From the NCBI GenBank assembly GCA_028693235.1, contig JAQUVW010000001.1:532616-596615 (forward strand): 64,000 nt of DNA. Direction: 5' to 3'. Source of the DNA: Candidatus Gastranaerophilales bacterium (GTDB lineage Bacteria; Cyanobacteriota; Vampirovibrionia; Gastranaerophilales; Gastranaerophilaceae). The notes under the pieces are model-generated. The model was not told the origin of the DNA. It did no database searches and worked only from the letters and a program-made list of their open reading frames with translations. The translations under genes and the position numbers were made by a program. The stretch's first letter is position 1. Each line of letters opens with the position of its first letter. Shown here piece by piece: positions 28,953-64,000 of the stretch.

Positions 28953-31900
28953 CTAATTGCCTACTGTAGTTTTCTTTTCTTCTGAATAATATTTTAATAA
29001 ATTACCGAATTGTTGTATTTTTTGCACTTTGTCATTTTGTTGAATTTTTTGTAATTGTTCTTGAACTTTTTCGTTTTGTTTAATTTGTTGAATTGCTTCT
29101 TCTTTTGTTTTGGGAATAACAACTTCTGGTGGATTGGGGTTTATATTAGTTTGAATTTTCAATAAATCTTTTAAAGATGTTTGTGTGTTTTGTATTTCAG
29201 CAGGAGTAGTAAGCCATTGGAATGATTTTACGAAAGTTGGTTTTTGTATATCTCCGTTGATTAATACTTTAAATTCTTGTGAATGGGCATCGGTTGTCAA
29301 TGGCGGAATTTGTGATAATTGAGCTTGCGTCGTAGGTGTATTAAAGATTTGCAGAATGCTTACCGCCGCAGGTCCGAATTTTGGAATATTGCTTAATAGT
29401 TTTTCTGGTGAAAATGTTGCAATTGGTCCTAATGCTGCAACCACCTTGTCTGATAGTCTTCCTTTTATAATCAAGTTGGCGTAATTGTTTAAAAGATTAT
29501 AATTTCCGTCGATGTAAAGCGACATATTATCCCCTGACGACTTGATTTCATTTATTATGCAGTAACCGTTTTGCAAGTGCACGGTCCCTTTTAGGTAGTC
29601 AAAATTGCCTGTATTATATGGGGCAATTGTGTTTATTATGCCACCTAAAGATGTACTGATAAAGGTTTGAGAAACCAAATTGTTAGCTTTTAAGAAAGTT
29701 TCAAGTTGTCCCAAGCTCCCCATTTGACCGTTTTCAATATTGAAATCTACATTACCTTTTAACGATTTTATTTGTTCTTGATAAGTTAGTCCTTTTAAAA
29801 CAACATCTGCTTTAAAATTCAATGTTCCGAAAAGTTGATTATTTAAAGCCAAGAAAGCACTTACTGCAGGATTTGCATCAATCCCTTGTGCTTTTATATT
29901 TGTTTTTGTTATAAAGTTTGAAAGATTGTATGTTGCTTTTCCTGATATGTTGCCGTTGTAAGCTTTCGCATTGAGATTATCAAGGTAGACCACATTCTTA
30001 TTTAGACGAAAATCGCTGGAAATATCGTTTAGTATTGCGTTTCCTGATTTTAATCTTGTGATTGTCCCGTAACCGTTAAAAATTTTGACAGGAATATTCA
30101 TTCCTACTTGTTGAGATGATTGTGTGCCAGTTATTTTTGCAAGTTTTTCTGAGGCTTTCATAACATTGTCCAAATCAAAATTTGAAGAAGAAATTGTCAT
30201 TTTGCTGATTGTGAAAACATTTGTGAAATTAAGTTTTGCATTTGCGTCAATATTTAAGTTCGAGCCGTTAATGTCAATATTGTCAATTTTTGCATTTATA
30301 TTAGAGTCATCAAGGTTTAAATCAATATTTTGAATTTTTGTCAAAATATCAGGCAACGTAACAGATGAAATATTTATATTTCCTTTTGCTTTAGGGTTAT
30401 TAATCGGTCCATCAATCGCTAAAGTTCCCTTCAAATTTAATTTTGAATTTTGTATAGCAGGAGTTGAAACAGATAAAGCTGCTGGCAAATGAAGTTTTAT
30501 ATTCTGTATTCTAGGCATTTTTTTGTCAAGATGCGTGATTTTCCCTGTTAATTGTGCGATTTTATAACTGTCGGACAAGTCGTTTTTATTTGATTTTTTT
30601 ACATTTTTAGCGGTTTGTAATTCATAAAGACCAATGTCTTTTATGTTTAATTCGTTTCCGTTAAGTTGAATAAAGGCATTGATTATGCTTGGTTTGCCTA
30701 CCAATTTGTTGACTGTAATAGGTGAAAAATTATTATTAGAGTCAGCGATTAATTGAGCTTTAAAATCAATTTTGTCAGGAGTTCCGTTTACGTTTATTAA
30801 TAAAGGAATAGCACCTTTTTGTAAAACAAATCCTTTTGCTTCTTTTGGTAGCAATTTCCCTAAATCTGTAGCTTTTAGCTTGCCTTTTGCTTCAATCTGA
30901 ATGTCAGGAGTTTTTACATAGTTTTTAATTTTTCCTGAGAGTGAAATCGGTGAAGAATTAAACAAAATTTCTGATGGTGAAATTGTAATGTCTTTAGTGT
31001 CAAAATCAGCTTTTATTTGTGGGTTTTTAATGGTTATGTCGAAATTAGGAATACCAATATAAGTTTTTTGAGAGATTATGTTGCCTTTATAAGCCTCTTT
31101 ATCGGTTCTTATATTCGTTTTTAAAAGTTGATTTGTTAATACAATATTGTTAATTTTGTCTTTTGCACTAAGTCCTGTCAATTCAAGTTGCAATTCGGGT
31201 TTTAAATCATCTAATGCCCCTTTTATGTTGGCTAAAAGTGTTAATGAGCCCTTGTTTATTGCGTAAGCCTTTTTTATATCAAGTGGCGAAAATGCGTTGA
31301 ATAAGCCTGCTATTCCCAACTGATTAGTCGATATTTTGATGTCTGTTGTAGCGTCTGAAAGGATTGTCCCCTCAGCTTTTAGCATTGTACCGTTTATGAG
31401 GGCTTTTGTATCTTTTATTTGAATTTTATTATCTGTAAAATCAATGTTTGACGTTGCATTTGTTATTTTTGCAGAATAATTTTTATGGGAAATTCCACCG
31501 TTTGCTAAAATTAAATTTCCGTTTGATTTTAACTTTTTAAGGTTTGTTTCAAGGTTAAAGTTTGCGATTATATAACCTTGCATATTGATTTCGTTAAGCT
31601 GATTTGGAATAGAAAAGGTGTCCAAAGCCGCTTCAATCAAATCTTTTATGCTATTTAGTTCAATTTTGTCTGTATTAATTATAGCTTCGATTTTTGGGTG
31701 ACTACTTGTGTTTAAGTAAGCATTAAATTTAATTTGTTCTTTTTCATTCGGGTGAAGTAAAGAGTCAATATCTGTTTTGTGCCCTTTGAATTTCATCACG
31801 ATATAGCTTGTTGGAAGCTTTTTGCCCTTAATAGTCAAGGTCATGTTATCTGCTTTGAAAAGACCTTTGAGATGAATTCCATCTTTGTGCTCTCTTACTT

Positions 31901-32666
31901 TTAGGTTGCACAAAATATCAGCAGTAGGTGCAAATTTAATGAAAGAATTTATAGGGTTGATAAATTGAGTGGTTATCTCATTATTAGCTTCTTCTTGTGT
32001 TATCGGTGGTAAAAAAGTATCAAGATTAATATTGTAAGAAATATTTTTGTCTTTGTTTGCGTAAATATTCCCGATTGTTTTAATCCTTACTTTTTTGTTT
32101 AATTCACCTTTATCAATTTGAAGTTTTTTGCATACAATCTTAATAGTGTTTTTGGTATTTGTATCAGAGATGTAAATTTCTGATTGGTCAATTTTTATAA
32201 CCGGAAGTTTGTTTGATATTCTAAAGGGGAGTTCTTGAGGCGGAGTGTTTTCATCTTCTGTTGAAGCAAAAAGCTCTTCAATTTTTAGTTTGTTGTTGTC
32301 AACAACCTCTAATCTCAATTTGGGCGATTGAATATCAATGTTAGAAATCCTTATAGTTTTTGTTATCAAAGGAAGTAAAGAAATTTTAACACTTGCTTTT
32401 TTACCTGTGAATAATTCAGAATTATCCATATAATTTACTTTTAAATTGTCAGCTTTAACTCCAACTTTCAATGTCGGGGTTGTGATTATTTTTGCGTTAG
32501 AAAAATCTATTTTGATATTAGCTGTTTTTTGCACGTTTTGTTGAATGTCACTTTTATATTTATTTATATTTATTACATTCGGTAAAATAAGCAAAAACGC
32601 TATATAAAATGCCGCAAATATAGTAAATGCGACGATGCCCAACTTCTTTAGAATACTAATCTTCAT
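28953..32666 (-). CDS. AsmA-like envelope lipid-transport family protein
   Basis: 1237 residues. One N-terminal membrane anchor (about residues 8-30) is followed by an AsmA domain, with INKYKSDIQQNVQKTANIKI matching the conserved early helix. The body is a long series of beta-strands with repeating N-L-x-I-x-G and K-A-x-G-x-x patterns typical of the repeating beta-groove proteins AsmA, YhdP and TamB. The late part has LKGNVDFNIENGQMGSLG, a motif typical of the AsmA-2 C-terminal region, with a NGYCIINEIKSSGDNMSLYIDG block. Such proteins are proposed to bridge phospholipids from inner to outer membrane. The last 60 residues are Gln/Lys-rich coiled coil. Confidence 0.85.
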   Translation of the reverse strand: MKISILKKLGIVAFTIFAAFYIAFLLILPNVININKYKSDIQQNVQKTANIKIDFSNAKIITTPTLKVGVKADNLKVNYMDNSELFTGKKASVKISLLPLITKTIRISNIDIQSPKLRLEVVDNNKLKIEELFASTEDENTPPQELPFRISNKLPVIKIDQSEIYISDTNTKNTIKIVCKKLQIDKGELNKKVRIKTIGNIYANKDKNISYNINLDTFLPPITQEEANNEITTQFINPINSFIKFAPTADILCNLKVREHKDGIHLKGLFKADNMTLTIKGKKLPTSYIVMKFKGHKTDIDSLLHPNEKEQIKFNAYLNTSSHPKIEAIINTDKIELNSIKDLIEAALDTFSIPNQLNEINMQGYIIANFNLETNLKKLKSNGNLILANGGISHKNYSAKITNATSNIDFTDNKIQIKDTKALINGTMLKAEGTILSDATTDIKISTNQLGIAGLFNAFSPLDIKKAYAINKGSLTLLANIKGALDDLKPELQLELTGLSAKDKINNIVLTNQLLKTNIRTDKEAYKGNIISQKTYIGIPNFDITIKNPQIKADFDTKDITISPSEILFNSSPISLSGKIKNYVKTPDIQIEAKGKLKATDLGKLLPKEAKGFVLQKGAIPLLINVNGTPDKIDFKAQLIADSNNNFSPITVNKLVGKPSIINAFIQLNGNELNIKDIGLYELQTAKNVKKSNKNDLSDSYKIAQLTGKITHLDKKMPRIQNIKLHLPAALSVSTPAIQNSKLNLKGTLAIDGPINNPKAKGNINISSVTLPDILTKIQNIDLNLDDSNINAKIDNIDINGSNLNIDANAKLNFTNVFTISKMTISSSNFDLDNVMKASEKLAKITGTQSSQQVGMNIPVKIFNGYGTITRLKSGNAILNDISSDFRLNKNVVYLDNLNAKAYNGNISGKATYNLSNFITKTNIKAQGIDANPAVSAFLALNNQLFGTLNFKADVVLKGLTYQEQIKSLKGNVDFNIENGQMGSLGQLETFLKANNLVSQTFISTSLGGIINTIAPYNTGNFDYLKGTVHLQNGYCIINEIKSSGDNMSLYIDGNYNLLNNYANLIIKGRLSDKVVAALGPIATFSPEKLLSNIPKFGPAAVSILQIFNTPTTQAQLSQIPPLTTDAHSQEFKVLINGDIQKPTFVKSFQWLTTPAEIQNTQTSLKDLLKIQTNINPNPPEVVIPKTKEEAIQQIKQNEKVQEQLQKIQQNDKVQKIQQFGNLLKYYSEEKKTTVGN

Positions 32667-58238: not shown

Positions 58239-59960
58239 TTATGTCTGTTCTGTTTTCTTTTTCTCTTCTTGTTTTTTCAATGCAATTTCCTTGAAATTTG
58301 ATTCGATATCTTTTGCTTTATCCTTGCCTTCATACTTGCCGATTGTTTGAATAGCATTTTTTACATCGCTTCGGGTTATTCCCAAATTGCTCCAAGCTGT
58401 TTCTAATTTCTTTTCAAGGTTTGTATAATTATTTTCAAATTCACTGTATACTTTACTGAAATCAGTTGCTTTAGCAGCAGTATTTTTGTCTTTTGCGAAA
58501 TCATTTATACCATTGTCCCTGTCAGAGAAATTGTAGTTATTTCTTAGCCAATCGACGTTATCCAAGGTGTTATATCCATTGTCTACATTATCACCGTTGA
58601 ATGTTAATGAGTATGTTCCAAGAAGTGTGTTTCCGTTAGACATATCCTTGTTTACCGCATCATAACTGTTTAGGTTGATTGAGTCACCGTCTTTGAATAC
58701 ATCGGCTGCATTTTTGACTGTTTGTTTACCTGATGAATCTGTTACAACCATTTTTAAATCACTTGCCGCAAGTTCATCTTTAGATACTTTACCGTCGCTA
58801 TTTGCGTCTAATGCTGCCATTTCATTCCAGCCGTTTTTTGCACCTAAAAATTCATTTTCATTACTCAAATCACCGTTTTTATCCTTGTCAACGAAGAAGT
58901 CATAGCGATTGCCACCTTGCGAGAAACCAATCGGGTCGCATCGTTTGCAATTTTCATCATCTTTTGCTGCAGATTCTTTTTCTTTTTCTACCAAATCATT
59001 TACTTGGTCAGATAGTTTGCTGGCATTGCTTGCAAGATTTGTATTAGCTTTTATAAGCGTGCCCATTTTGTCTAGGTAGCCTTTTAGTGTTCCCATTTTA
59101 TTTTCGGCATCGACCATTTTGTTGATTACTTGCGAAAGCTTCGTATCACCGCTTGCAGACAATGAGTTTAGACGGTTTGATAAATGCCCTTTAAAATCAT
59201 CATAGGTCATAGAGCCTTCGGCACGGGTATATCTGTCGAGTTCTTCGCTTACAATTTTTGAAGCATCTTTCTTTTGCTCATCAGCGATTTCTTCACTTTG
59301 TTCAATCGCAGCGTCAATTTGTTTTTCTATTTCTTTTTGAAGCTGTTCAACAGTGCCTTTTAAGGCTTCAATTTGGTTATTATTTGATATTATTTGTGAA
59401 TTTAATGAGCTTAATTGTGTTTGTAAAGCTTGGATTTGCTCAGTATATCCTGAGGCAGATTTCAAATCTTTAACAAACTGGTTGTAAACTTCTTTAGCTG
59501 TAGCGTCGTGACCAATCGGGCAGTTATAACTGCCGTCGTCATTGAGAGAGATACCTACGCTTGGAAATACTTGGTTTATTATGTTTACAATTTCATTTTT
59601 AGAATATGTTTTGCCTAAATCGGCAATTACTCCATCTTTTAATGCCTTTTGAAACGCAATTAATTGTGGATTGTTTGAGGTGTATGGGTCGCTACCGCCG
59701 GCAGTTGCTGCGTATTTTGTTTGCAATTCTTTAACTATTGCAGAAATATCTTTCGTTTCTTTAGTAGTGCTTTCTTGAAAATTTGCCAGTAAAGGAGCTG
59801 TATCTATTCCCATAGTTGTAATTTGAGCCAGTTCATCTTTTGTAAAACCACCTTCAGCAAGTTCCTTAACTTCTTTAATTTGAGCTTCTGTAAGAGTCTT
59901 TCCGTACAAAGAGTCAACGCTTACAGTCGTTTTTAAATAATTTACCTCATTTAAACCCAT
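58239..59960 (-). CDS. EF-hand coiled-coil protein of unknown function
   Basis: 573 residues from ATG 59960 (AAGGTG six bases upstream); GTG nine bases earlier is possible. No signal peptide. Residues about 165-245 form a long coiled coil. A region at 338-397 has CKRCDPIG, then two EF-hand loops: DKDKNGDLSNEN (358-369) and the canonical DANSDGKVSKDE (385-396), which supply six to seven acidic/Asn ligands each. The block around it (NRYDFFVDKDKNGD ... GWNEMAALDANSDGK) resembles calcium-binding domains of type I-secreted proteins. Cellular location and role unknown. Confidence 0.75.
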   Translation of the reverse strand: MGLNEVNYLKTTVSVDSLYGKTLTEAQIKEVKELAEGGFTKDELAQITTMGIDTAPLLANFQESTTKETKDISAIVKELQTKYAATAGGSDPYTSNNPQLIAFQKALKDGVIADLGKTYSKNEIVNIINQVFPSVGISLNDDGSYNCPIGHDATAKEVYNQFVKDLKSASGYTEQIQALQTQLSSLNSQIISNNNQIEALKGTVEQLQKEIEKQIDAAIEQSEEIADEQKKDASKIVSEELDRYTRAEGSMTYDDFKGHLSNRLNSLSASGDTKLSQVINKMVDAENKMGTLKGYLDKMGTLIKANTNLASNASKLSDQVNDLVEKEKESAAKDDENCKRCDPIGFSQGGNRYDFFVDKDKNGDLSNENEFLGAKNGWNEMAALDANSDGKVSKDELAASDLKMVVTDSSGKQTVKNAADVFKDGDSINLNSYDAVNKDMSNGNTLLGTYSLTFNGDNVDNGYNTLDNVDWLRNNYNFSDRDNGINDFAKDKNTAAKATDFSKVYSEFENNYTNLEKKLETAWSNLGITRSDVKNAIQTIGKYEGKDKAKDIESNFKEIALKKQEEKKKTEQT

Positions 59961-60064
59961 GACATTCACCTTACATTAATTCACGATACTTTTAATATAT
60001 CGGTCATATATTCATTGGCTTTAGGGTTTAAGCACATATTTGTTAAAGTTGTTACAATTTGTAA

Positions 60065-60340
60065 TTATTTGTTAGTAACTTTTTGTGGTTCTTTTTGTTT
60101 TGCGTATTCCATCAGGCAAATTGCAAGTTGTGCCGGGCAACTTGTTTCTTTTGTTCCACATTTTATATTTTCAAGCTTATTTATAACATCATTTACGTGC
60201 ATTCCTTTTACAAGTTGTGAGATTGCAGATAGGTTTCCACTACAACCACCTGAAAAATCTGTTGAATTTATGATGTTATTTTCAATTTCAATCTTTATTT
60301 TTTTACAGCAAACACCTTTGGGAGTGTATTCTATTTTCAT
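60065..60340 (-). CDS. TSCPD-domain protein (TIGR03905 type)
   Basis: 91 residues. Cys pattern GVCCKKIKI, SGGCSGNL, IKCGTKETSCPAQLA is the TSCPD signature found at the C-terminus of some ribonucleotide reductases and as short standalone proteins. It likely binds a metal or DNA/RNA-linked partner; role unknown. It begins 11 bases after the MlaA-hydrolase fusion ends, so they are cotranscribed. No ribosome site obvious except GGAAAATA. Confidence 0.82.
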   Translation of the reverse strand: MKIEYTPKGVCCKKIKIEIENNIINSTDFSGGCSGNLSAISQLVKGMHVNDVINKLENIKCGTKETSCPAQLAICLMEYAKQKEPQKVTNK

Positions 60341-60351
60341 AATTATTTTCC

Positions 60352-62394
60352 TTATTTTACAGTTTCCAGTTTGCTATCTTCTTCGTTCATAGCTTGTTTT
60401 GATTCAGCTTTTACAAGCTCCGGCGTATTGTGAAGATTTTCAATTGCTATTGTGTCTTTCAATGACGATTGAAATTCATTTCGATATAAGTATCCAAGAT
60501 GCGAGCCGTTTTCTAAAATCACCGTTTTTTCACCTGTAATATCTTTTAACCACGAAATTTGGTCGACACTTGTGAAATAATCATTTTTTGCCTCATAAAT
60601 TTTATAATTGTTGCTTTTTGTTAAAAAATCGGAAATAGAGGACATATGCAACTGCTTTTCAAGAGGTGTGTTTTTATCTTCAAGCGAAGAAACTAGATAA
60701 TTTTGCAAATAGTCGTTGAAGTTCATGTCATTAATTTTGTTGTAAATTGCAGTTTTTTTGCTTCTATTTTCGTTTTCTATTGTGTAAATTACGTCAGAAA
60801 GTTTTTGTTTCATAATAAAATCTATAGTAAATTTTCCTTCTTCAGTTGTAAAAGGCAATTCTTTAGGGTCATTGTTCGGGTCATTATCAGTCATAGCTTT
60901 TGTTACTTGCATAATTTTGCTTGCAACAATTGCGGCTCTTTCTTTTACATTTTCGTCATTTATATTCCATTCTGCTGCATTTTTATCAAGTTCTTTCATC
61001 GCAAACAGTAAATCAATTGGCGGACTAATAGCGATATATTTCGTTACACCAAGGGTGTCTTTTTCGTGTTCTTGAGCACCCACGAAAAGTGTAGTCATTG
61101 CACCAAAAGATGTACCTACAATAATCTTATCTTTCGGTGTAATATTGTTTTCTTTTGTTAGTTTATTGAAAATTTCATTTGTAACAAGTCTAACGAGTTG
61201 AGCATCTTTGTACGGATTTCCGGGGCGATAATCTGTAGGTGAGCTTTTTACAAATTCCCACTGAAAAGCACTTCCTTGAATTACAACCGAATATCCCAAA
61301 TCGTAAAACATTTTCGCAAATACTACTGAATGGTGTGAAGATGCCCCTTCTCCGATTGATGGATAAAATACCGCAATTGGTGCCGATTTGTCTTTTTGTA
61401 GAATATATCTGAATTTGTATGGCGTTTTCCCTTCATACAATTTTACTGAATCGTATTTGACTTTTTTGTTAAATGATTGATTCCAAACCGACATATCAGA
61501 CCACATTGATTTTTTCACGTCTGATTCAAAAAAGGAGGTTCTTAATGAGTCAACTATAGGATTTTGCGGTGCATAGTCAGCAAGTTTCATATCAGGTTCT
61601 ATTAGTTCATTCTCAAATGGCTCACTTTTTGGTATCGATTGTCCCTCAACGATTTGTCCTATAACTTCTTTTTTATCAAGATTCTCATTTTTTATATAAT
61701 TGTCGATGCCTGATAATTTTTTTGCGATATCATAAGGGTCAGCAAAATTCCCCTCTAAGCCCGACAACAAACTTTGAGCACAGGTGGTTCTGTTTGCCAT
61801 AAAACCTGCTTTCACAATCATTGGTACCAATCCAAAAGTATAAGTGCTCGGAGTTAAAGCATAGTCAAGAACTTTCCCGACATAACCTCTTACATTGCTT
61901 GGCGGTACACAAGGAAGTACGATATAAGGTCCTTGCGGGATTTTGCATTTTGACAGAACTTGTTCCATGCTGTCTTGCTGCGGCTCAATTTTAAATTTGC
62001 TTTTTGCGGGGTCATAGAGCCCTCCGAGTCCGATGGTTGAATTTAACAAAAATCTATATGTTTCATCTTTTACACCTGAAAAATCCTTTTGTAATAGGCA
62101 ACTTACAGCTCTTTTGGGGTATTCTATATTCGTATAAACGTTTTTTATTCGTTCAATTCCATATTTTGGCATTATAGATGCCCAGACAATGTTGATGGGC
62201 TTAAGTATAAATTTATTTATATTAGTGTTAAATTGATACATTTTTCTGTTGTAGTTTTCAAACTTGTCTTCTCCGGAAAAAGCTTTTGCGTAATCAGGAT
62301 ATTTTGTAGTGCTTTCTGCGGCCATGGCAAGGTCTAAACAGCCACTCATCAAGTATGTCAGCATTAAGACTAATGCAATTTTCTTTTTAAACAT
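60352..62394 (-). CDS. MlaA-type lipoprotein fused to alpha/beta hydrolase
   Basis: 680 residues. Signal peptide with Cys19 in YLMSGC suggests a lipoprotein. Residues about 35-235 match MlaA/VacJ: FENYNRKMYQFNTNINKFILKP (in pieces ENYNRKMYQFN), PKRAVSCLLQKDFSG, RFLLNSTIGLGGLYDPA, SMEQVLSKCKIPQGPYIVLPCVPPSN and VLDYALTP. MlaA sits in the outer membrane and returns phospholipids. Residues about 320-660 form an alpha/beta hydrolase: IAVFYPSIGEG, nucleophile elbow IIVGTSFGAMTT with Ser429, and NGSHLGYLYR carrying the probable catalytic His. I know no common protein with this fusion. Mla partners are absent locally. Confidence 0.85.
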   Translation of the reverse strand: MFKKKIALVLMLTYLMSGCLDLAMAAESTTKYPDYAKAFSGEDKFENYNRKMYQFNTNINKFILKPINIVWASIMPKYGIERIKNVYTNIEYPKRAVSCLLQKDFSGVKDETYRFLLNSTIGLGGLYDPAKSKFKIEPQQDSMEQVLSKCKIPQGPYIVLPCVPPSNVRGYVGKVLDYALTPSTYTFGLVPMIVKAGFMANRTTCAQSLLSGLEGNFADPYDIAKKLSGIDNYIKNENLDKKEVIGQIVEGQSIPKSEPFENELIEPDMKLADYAPQNPIVDSLRTSFFESDVKKSMWSDMSVWNQSFNKKVKYDSVKLYEGKTPYKFRYILQKDKSAPIAVFYPSIGEGASSHHSVVFAKMFYDLGYSVVIQGSAFQWEFVKSSPTDYRPGNPYKDAQLVRLVTNEIFNKLTKENNITPKDKIIVGTSFGAMTTLFVGAQEHEKDTLGVTKYIAISPPIDLLFAMKELDKNAAEWNINDENVKERAAIVASKIMQVTKAMTDNDPNNDPKELPFTTEEGKFTIDFIMKQKLSDVIYTIENENRSKKTAIYNKINDMNFNDYLQNYLVSSLEDKNTPLEKQLHMSSISDFLTKSNNYKIYEAKNDYFTSVDQISWLKDITGEKTVILENGSHLGYLYRNEFQSSLKDTIAIENLHNTPELVKAESKQAMNEEDSKLETVK

Positions 62395-62560
62395 GTCCCC
62401 TCTAATCTGTTATTACTGTTTTGAAACAGTGTAGGAAATATTATGATATTTTCCATTCTACGTAGAGGGATAATGGCATTTAGTAATTAACTTTAGTCTT
62501 TCGGGTATTGTTAAAAAGTTTGTTGTTTTTTATTTAATACATTTGTTGTAAAATCTAAAT

Positions 62561-63574: not shown

Positions 63575-64000
63575 TTAGGCTTCTTGTATATGCTTAAGTA
63601 CAAGTTGATAAGTGCTCGGGAACAGTTTTTTCATAGCAGCTTGTTTCCCGTTGCTATCATTCAAAATATAGCTGCCTATTACGGCGAAACTTTCTGTTGA
63701 TGTTCTTCTGCACATTTCGTTTTTATTTTCAGATGAATAATTGGCTAAATTAGGTTCTATATAATTGATGTCAGATGCGAGCAGTTGGTAATCTTTGTCA
63801 TTTCCATCCAGATTTTTTATGTTGTTTAAATCGGAATATAAGGCTGATTTATATTCTTCACTTGTGCTATATGAGCCCCATTGTCCACGTTTCATGTCGC
63901 CACCAGTGTAATTTATTCCTGATTGCATATCTGTGTCTACATAATCAATAGCGTGTGTGAGTTCATGAGCCAATTCTACATATTCTTGGTCATTGATTGA
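63575..64000 (-). CDS. Zincin metalloprotease-like protein, N-terminus outside window
   Basis: 142 codons visible; the frame runs past the window edge. EYVELAHELTHAIDYVDTD gives an HExxH zinc helix, and CRRTSTESFAVIGSYIL downstream gives a candidate third ligand Glu in the gluzincin ESFA pattern (as in anthrax lethal factor-like and M34-type proteases). A complete active site is likely. Between them are Asn/Asp-rich, low-complexity parts. Start and signal peptide lie outside. Substrate unknown. Confidence 0.68.
   Translation of the reverse strand, partial: SINDQEYVELAHELTHAIDYVDTDMQSGINYTGGDMKRGQWGSYSTSEEYKSALYSDLNNIKNLDGNDKDYQLLASDINYIEPNLANYSSENKNEMCRRTSTESFAVIGSYILNDSNGKQAAMKKLFPSTYQLVLKHIQEA

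Follow-up and report, generated by a model that had tools for sequence, protein, structure and literature searches.

Introduction

The closest known system to the locus described here is MlaYZ of Pseudomonas aeruginosa. The lipase MlaY (PA3238) and the MlaA-family protein MlaZ (PA3239) are proposed to extract and degrade misplaced phospholipids (PMC11131202, PMC12569750). The pairing of a channel with a lipase activity is thus already known, in the form of two separate proteins. The system is credited to Guest et al. (2023) in PMC11131202, PMC11977310, PMC12569750 and PMC10925693. The catalytic triad of MlaY is given in PMC11977310 as Ser187, Asp388 and His415.

Canonical MlaA (VacJ) is a component of the MlaABCDEF system of E. 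coli (PDB 5nuo, 8i8r), where its C-terminal tail brings MlaC to the exit of the pore (PMC10245069, PMC10719372). Lipidation of MlaA is common but not universal, and homologues cleaved by signal peptidase I exist (PMC11131202). In a survey of 1,083 genomes, MlaABC were totally absent from diderm Terrabacteria and the presence of MlaA was linked to the Lol system (PMC10665443). Veillonella, a diderm Terrabacterium without MlaC, has an MlaEFD-only system with a long MlaD (PMC10665443).

Architecture of the fusion gene

The window, a stretch of 64,000 nucleotides from a Candidatus Gastranaerophilales bacterium, carries on its minus strand (62394–60352) a single ATG-to-stop frame of 680 amino acids, an mlaZ-mlaY-like fusion gene. 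A Shine-Dalgarno-like GAGGGG (62397–62402, minus strand, as are all features of the gene) lies 2 nt 5′ of the ATG. The product begins with an N-terminal signal peptide (residues 1–25, 62320–62394) ending at an AMA/A site; the signal peptide overlaps an unconserved lipobox-like LMSGC motif. The MlaA domain (PF04333, residues 42–226, 61717–62271) is followed by a variable linker (residues 242–268, 61591–61671) and by an MlaY-like α/β-hydrolase domain (residues 269–650, 60445–61590), in which a helical cap or insertion between core strands occupies residues 462–593 (60616–61011). Alignment with MlaY designates Ser429 (61108–61110), in a GTSFG motif, as the nucleophile, Asp605 (60580–60582) as the acid and His632 (60499–60501) as the histidine of the triad. 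Third-position G+C is alike in the two halves (0.33 and 0.27).

Single-sequence structure prediction of the protein gave a pLDDT of 32 and was discarded in favour of an alignment-based AlphaFold model built with 24 homologues (pLDDT 83.2, pTM 0.82). This model contains both an MlaA fold and an α/β-hydrolase fold, the check by structure prediction that had been suggested when the locus was first read. The Pfam match of the N-terminal half, the model and the presence of the same frame in related genomes together confirm that the MlaA-hydrolase fusion is real, as a single 680-residue chain.

The MlaA domain and its leader

The MlaA domain matches its Pfam profile with an E-value of 2.6e-41 (141.9 bits against a cut-off of 25) over profile positions 2–186 of 195. 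Its closest solved relatives in a sequence search against the PDB are enterobacterial MlaA structures (5nuq, E 1e-14; 5nuo; 8i8r). Foldseek superimposes the modelled domain on 5nuo_B, 5nuo_F and 8i8r_D with TM-scores by target of about 0.77 (0.77 for 5nuo_B). The N-terminal half shares fold and core motifs with canonical MlaA, and identity to the top-ranked structure is 28%. However, the fusion differs from canonical MlaA in that it resides in a genome without MlaC, is usually unlipidated, carries a hydrolase and lacks the MlaC-recruiting C-terminal tail, the place of which is taken by the linker, 27–95 amino acids long and variable across homologues, and the hydrolase.

The original prediction called the N-terminal half a lipoprotein. 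The window protein itself has a lipobox-like sequence (YLMSGC, with LMSGC at Cys19), but it is one of only two carriers of the pattern among 97 homologues. No Cys is found within the first 35 residues of 33 of these 97 proteins, and the leaders of all but the two lipobox carriers resemble ordinary signal-peptidase-I type leaders. A search of the relatives for LolA yielded only one weak match, with an internal stop. Since the lipobox is restricted to 2/97 proteins and LolA is essentially absent, the leaders of the fusion family are read as signal-peptidase-I type, and the term lipoprotein is unsupported for the family.

The hydrolase domain and its catalytic site

The C-terminal half is hardly visible to family searches. 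No match above cut-off was obtained with Pfam, NCBIfam or PDB sequence searches, and Pfam applied to this half alone gave only sub-threshold hits (Abhydrolase_3, E 0.01, and weak Abhydrolase and Esterase matches). PF02253, the PldA family, was not matched by the fusion protein in the Pfam search. In the AlphaFold model, by contrast with these sub-threshold matches, the C-terminal strands and helices follow the α/β-hydrolase order, with the helical cap at 462–593, and Foldseek retrieves esterases and thioesterases such as 3qit, 5g59 and 7qjm.

The intact Ser elbow and His noted in the first reading of the sequence hold across the family: Ser429 and His632 are invariant in 97/97 distinct homologues, as is Asp605, now identified as the acid. 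Pro345, Gly348, Gly427 and Gly630 are likewise invariant. This pattern bears on the idea that the hydrolase fold is non-catalytic and serves as a covalently attached lipid-binding chaperone in place of MlaC. The position of the domain, where the MlaC-recruiting tail would be, suits such a role; however, all 97 distinct proteins keep Ser, Asp and His as well as the glycines of the elbow and of the oxyanion side, which makes it very improbable.

Relation to MlaYZ of P. aeruginosa

A tblastn search of plasmid sequences with the whole protein led to two-gene relatives. In P. aeruginosa records, an α/β-hydrolase gene lies 3 bp 5′ of a VacJ/MlaA gene, and the same hydrolase-MlaA pair is found in Fusobacterium vincentii and in Skermanella. 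In all three the two genes are adjacent, in an order opposite to that of the fusion. A search with the hydrolase half alone gave six matches in 72,556 plasmid records, from the same records as these pairs, and 6/6 of the matching genes directly precede an MlaA-family gene. The mlaY-like and mlaZ-like genes of F. vincentii (L169:5791-7831) overlap, in a stretch that is unannotated in the collection. On the Skermanella plasmids (L171:4740-11017 and L183:2902-7266), an RND efflux operon is followed by the MlaY-like and MlaZ-like genes and then by a gene with a TamB domain; TamB is a phospholipid-transport protein.

The triad of the P. aeruginosa enzyme falls at Ser187, Asp388 and His415. Because this numbering equals that of the published MlaY triad, the P. 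aeruginosa pair is identified as MlaY/MlaZ (PA3238/PA3239). PA2800, considered for the MlaA-type gene, was rejected on the same numbering. Arc3, an antagonism defence of P. aeruginosa whose description mentions vacJ, is encoded by PA5114-13 and is unrelated.

The three MlaY residues align with Ser429, Asp605 and His632 of the fusion, respectively. Profile comparison with hhalign aligned the fusion hydrolase with P. aeruginosa MlaY end to end over 305 columns (E 1.1e-21), although identity is only about 20%. The fusion hydrolase profile also matched the Fusobacterium enzyme (E 1.4e-20) and the Skermanella enzyme (E 4.3e-17), whereas two unrelated α/β-hydrolases used as controls gave local matches only (E 0.08 and 0.12). 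The MlaA halves of the fusion family and MlaZ match each other as well (E 2.2e-20). In a phylogenetic tree, built without an MlaA match read in the wrong frame of L184, a record bearing the label Pseudomonas phage, the fusion MlaA halves and the MlaZ sequences each form a supported group, and their union is weakly supported (45/26). In view of this weak support, a single origin for the fusion and the MlaYZ pair is no more than a possibility.

Both systems combine an MlaA-family channel domain with a homologous α/β-hydrolase bearing the same Ser-Asp-His triad, and by analogy both would clear misplaced phospholipids by extraction and degradation. They differ in that the fusion is one polypeptide, with the MlaA half first, whereas MlaYZ is encoded by two genes, with the MlaA-type gene second. 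Moreover, the fusion usually has no lipobox, is accompanied by no MlaC, PldA or separate MlaA, and belongs to a gut bacterium of the cyanobacterial phylum. Fused versions of MlaZ and MlaY were not found in the literature searched, a search to which the original MlaYZ paper did not belong.

The hydrolase could instead be an active esterase or thioesterase on some other envelope or environmental substrate, such as acylated glycans, host lipids or bile esters, the MlaA domain acting mainly as an outer-membrane anchor. The Pfam matches are generic, the best Foldseek enzymes are thioesterases and carboxylesterases with varied substrates, an anchoring domain would be useful to a protein without a lipobox, and animal guts are the main habitat of the hosts. 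We nevertheless consider this reading unlikely: the MlaA core is conserved to the same degree as the hydrolase core (mean column identity 0.68 for each), beyond what an anchor would need, and the nearest relatives of the hydrolase are MlaY-type genes adjoining MlaA-type genes.

Distribution in Cyanobacteriota

A search for the same fusion, proposed with the original prediction, found it in one frame in 24/59 related genomes. When 386 evenly sampled Cyanobacteriota genomes were searched, the profiles of MlaA and of the hydrolase matched an identical set of 92. Fusion frames in these genomes measure 650–827 amino acids, the exception being one genome (G290) in which contig ends truncate the gene. 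Neither a stand-alone MlaA nor a stand-alone hydrolase was found among the 386 genomes, and extending the profile with the Pseudomonas, Fusobacterium and Skermanella enzymes added only one borderline partial match (E 9.6e-4). Within this sample, MlaA occurs solely as the fusion. The group that hosts it is the Gastranaerophilales, and its hosts are mostly inhabitants of animal guts.

The joining of two genes by an assembly error can practically be dismissed as the origin of the fusion: the same single frame recurs in the related genomes above and in dozens of independent assemblies, which refute it.

The search for fusions outside Cyanobacteriota covered collections of plasmids and phages, together with a single pattern scan of contigs from GTDB genomes. 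The scan gave 174 coding stretches, 80 of which were kept. Most of these are titled Candidatus Gastranaerophilales, Melainabacteria or Cyanobacteria, or bear no taxon; the few with other names are taken to be mislabelled bins.

The distribution is patchy, and about 60% of the close relatives (for example G002, G003 and G005) are without the fusion, yet have LpxC and MlaDE. The fusion is therefore not essential to the outer membrane of this lineage.

Genomic context

LpxC, MlaD and MlaE are each present in 59/59 relatives. MlaC was detected in 0/59, with positive E. coli and Caulobacter controls, and PldA (PF02253) was also detected in 0/59. In this genome the mlaE-mlaD pair (G000:C1:54127-55886) lies about 480 kb from the fusion, in agreement with the earlier remark that Mla partners are not adjacent.

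The MlaA domain might alternatively pass lipids to a trans-envelope MlaD bridge, in true retrograde transport, with the hydrolase only trimming lysolipids or acting as a regulator. MlaD and MlaE are indeed ubiquitous among the relatives, where many MlaD frames reach about 450 amino acids, and it has been suggested that a long MlaD spans the envelope in bacteria lacking MlaA and MlaC (PMC10665443). However, MlaD and MlaE are equally present in the 35 relatives that lack the fusion and thus do not track it, mlaD and mlaE are unlinked to the fusion gene, and the hydrolase triad is invariant. We regard this reading as quite improbable.

No conserved gene neighbours of the fusion were found; the best family occurs at 17/81 loci, and its position is not fixed. 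A TIGR03905 TSCPD-domain gene (60065–60340, minus strand) starts about 11 bp past the fusion stop codon and is possibly co-transcribed with it; this gene is not among the recurrent neighbours of the fusion in relatives. Elsewhere in the window, the minus strand encodes a 576-residue coiled-coil protein (58239–59969), which has a single EF-hand-like stretch and matches no family above cut-off, and a HELTH metallopeptidase-like fragment that runs off the window (63575–64000), with a weak match to the effector family Peptidase_M91 (E 0.005). A 1,237-residue AsmA/DUF748-like protein (Pfam AsmA, E 5.8e-14) is encoded at 28953–32666, also on the minus strand; proteins of this family have been connected with the delivery of phospholipids to the outer membrane.

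Discussion

Homology to the published two-protein MlaYZ system, beyond the mere names of the domains, makes the coupling of phospholipid removal to hydrolysis the best-supported function of the fusion. We propose, with a probability of roughly 0.7, that it is a one-chain counterpart of MlaZ and MlaY which, without a chaperone, extracts phospholipids mislocalised in the outer membrane and hydrolyses them. An outer-leaflet phospholipid would enter the MlaA pore and, on emerging at the periplasmic side, would meet the tethered α/β-hydrolase rather than the chaperone MlaC. The Ser429-Asp605-His632 triad, by homology to MlaY, would then deacylate it, and the fatty acids and lysolipids would depart without a lipid chaperone. 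Such a device may keep the outer membrane asymmetric in LPS-making bacteria that have neither MlaC nor PldA. The long and variable linker counts against this scheme, insofar as the hand-over would call for a fixed geometry.

The original prediction, which coupled phospholipid retrieval to lipid hydrolysis, is thus supported for the coupling of removal to hydrolysis, through MlaYZ, but not for retrieval of the Mla type, which depends on MlaC. Since MlaC is found in none of the relatives and the MlaC-recruiting tail is replaced by linker and hydrolase, retrieval is less likely than breakdown of the lipids on the spot. In this role the fusion would resemble PldA (OMPLA), which degrades phospholipids arriving in the outer leaflet; PldA, however, is a β-barrel of another family. 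As a further and tentative step, to which we give somewhat less than even odds, the fusion may be a self-contained channel-lipase, in which phospholipids from the MlaA pore are cut by an enzyme of the same chain, taking over at once from the MlaC shuttle, from PldA and from anchoring as a lipoprotein, as the sole form of MlaA in the cyanobacterial phylum.

With its one-chain MlaA, the fusion family departs from the reported absence of MlaA from diderm Terrabacteria; Veillonella, with which its hosts share the absence of MlaC, is without any MlaA (PMC10665443). The family thereby corrects the published account, in which these bacteria lack MlaA altogether and MlaA goes together with the Lol lipoprotein system. 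So far P. aeruginosa is the one species from which a direct passing of lipids from MlaZ to MlaY has been proposed. A natural fusion present in dozens of genera, with both halves strongly constrained, provides independent evidence for a channel-lipase unit and offers a single protein in which lipid hand-over can be tested. Finally, it suggests a route by which a gut lineage that has neither MlaC nor PldA may maintain the asymmetry of its outer membrane.
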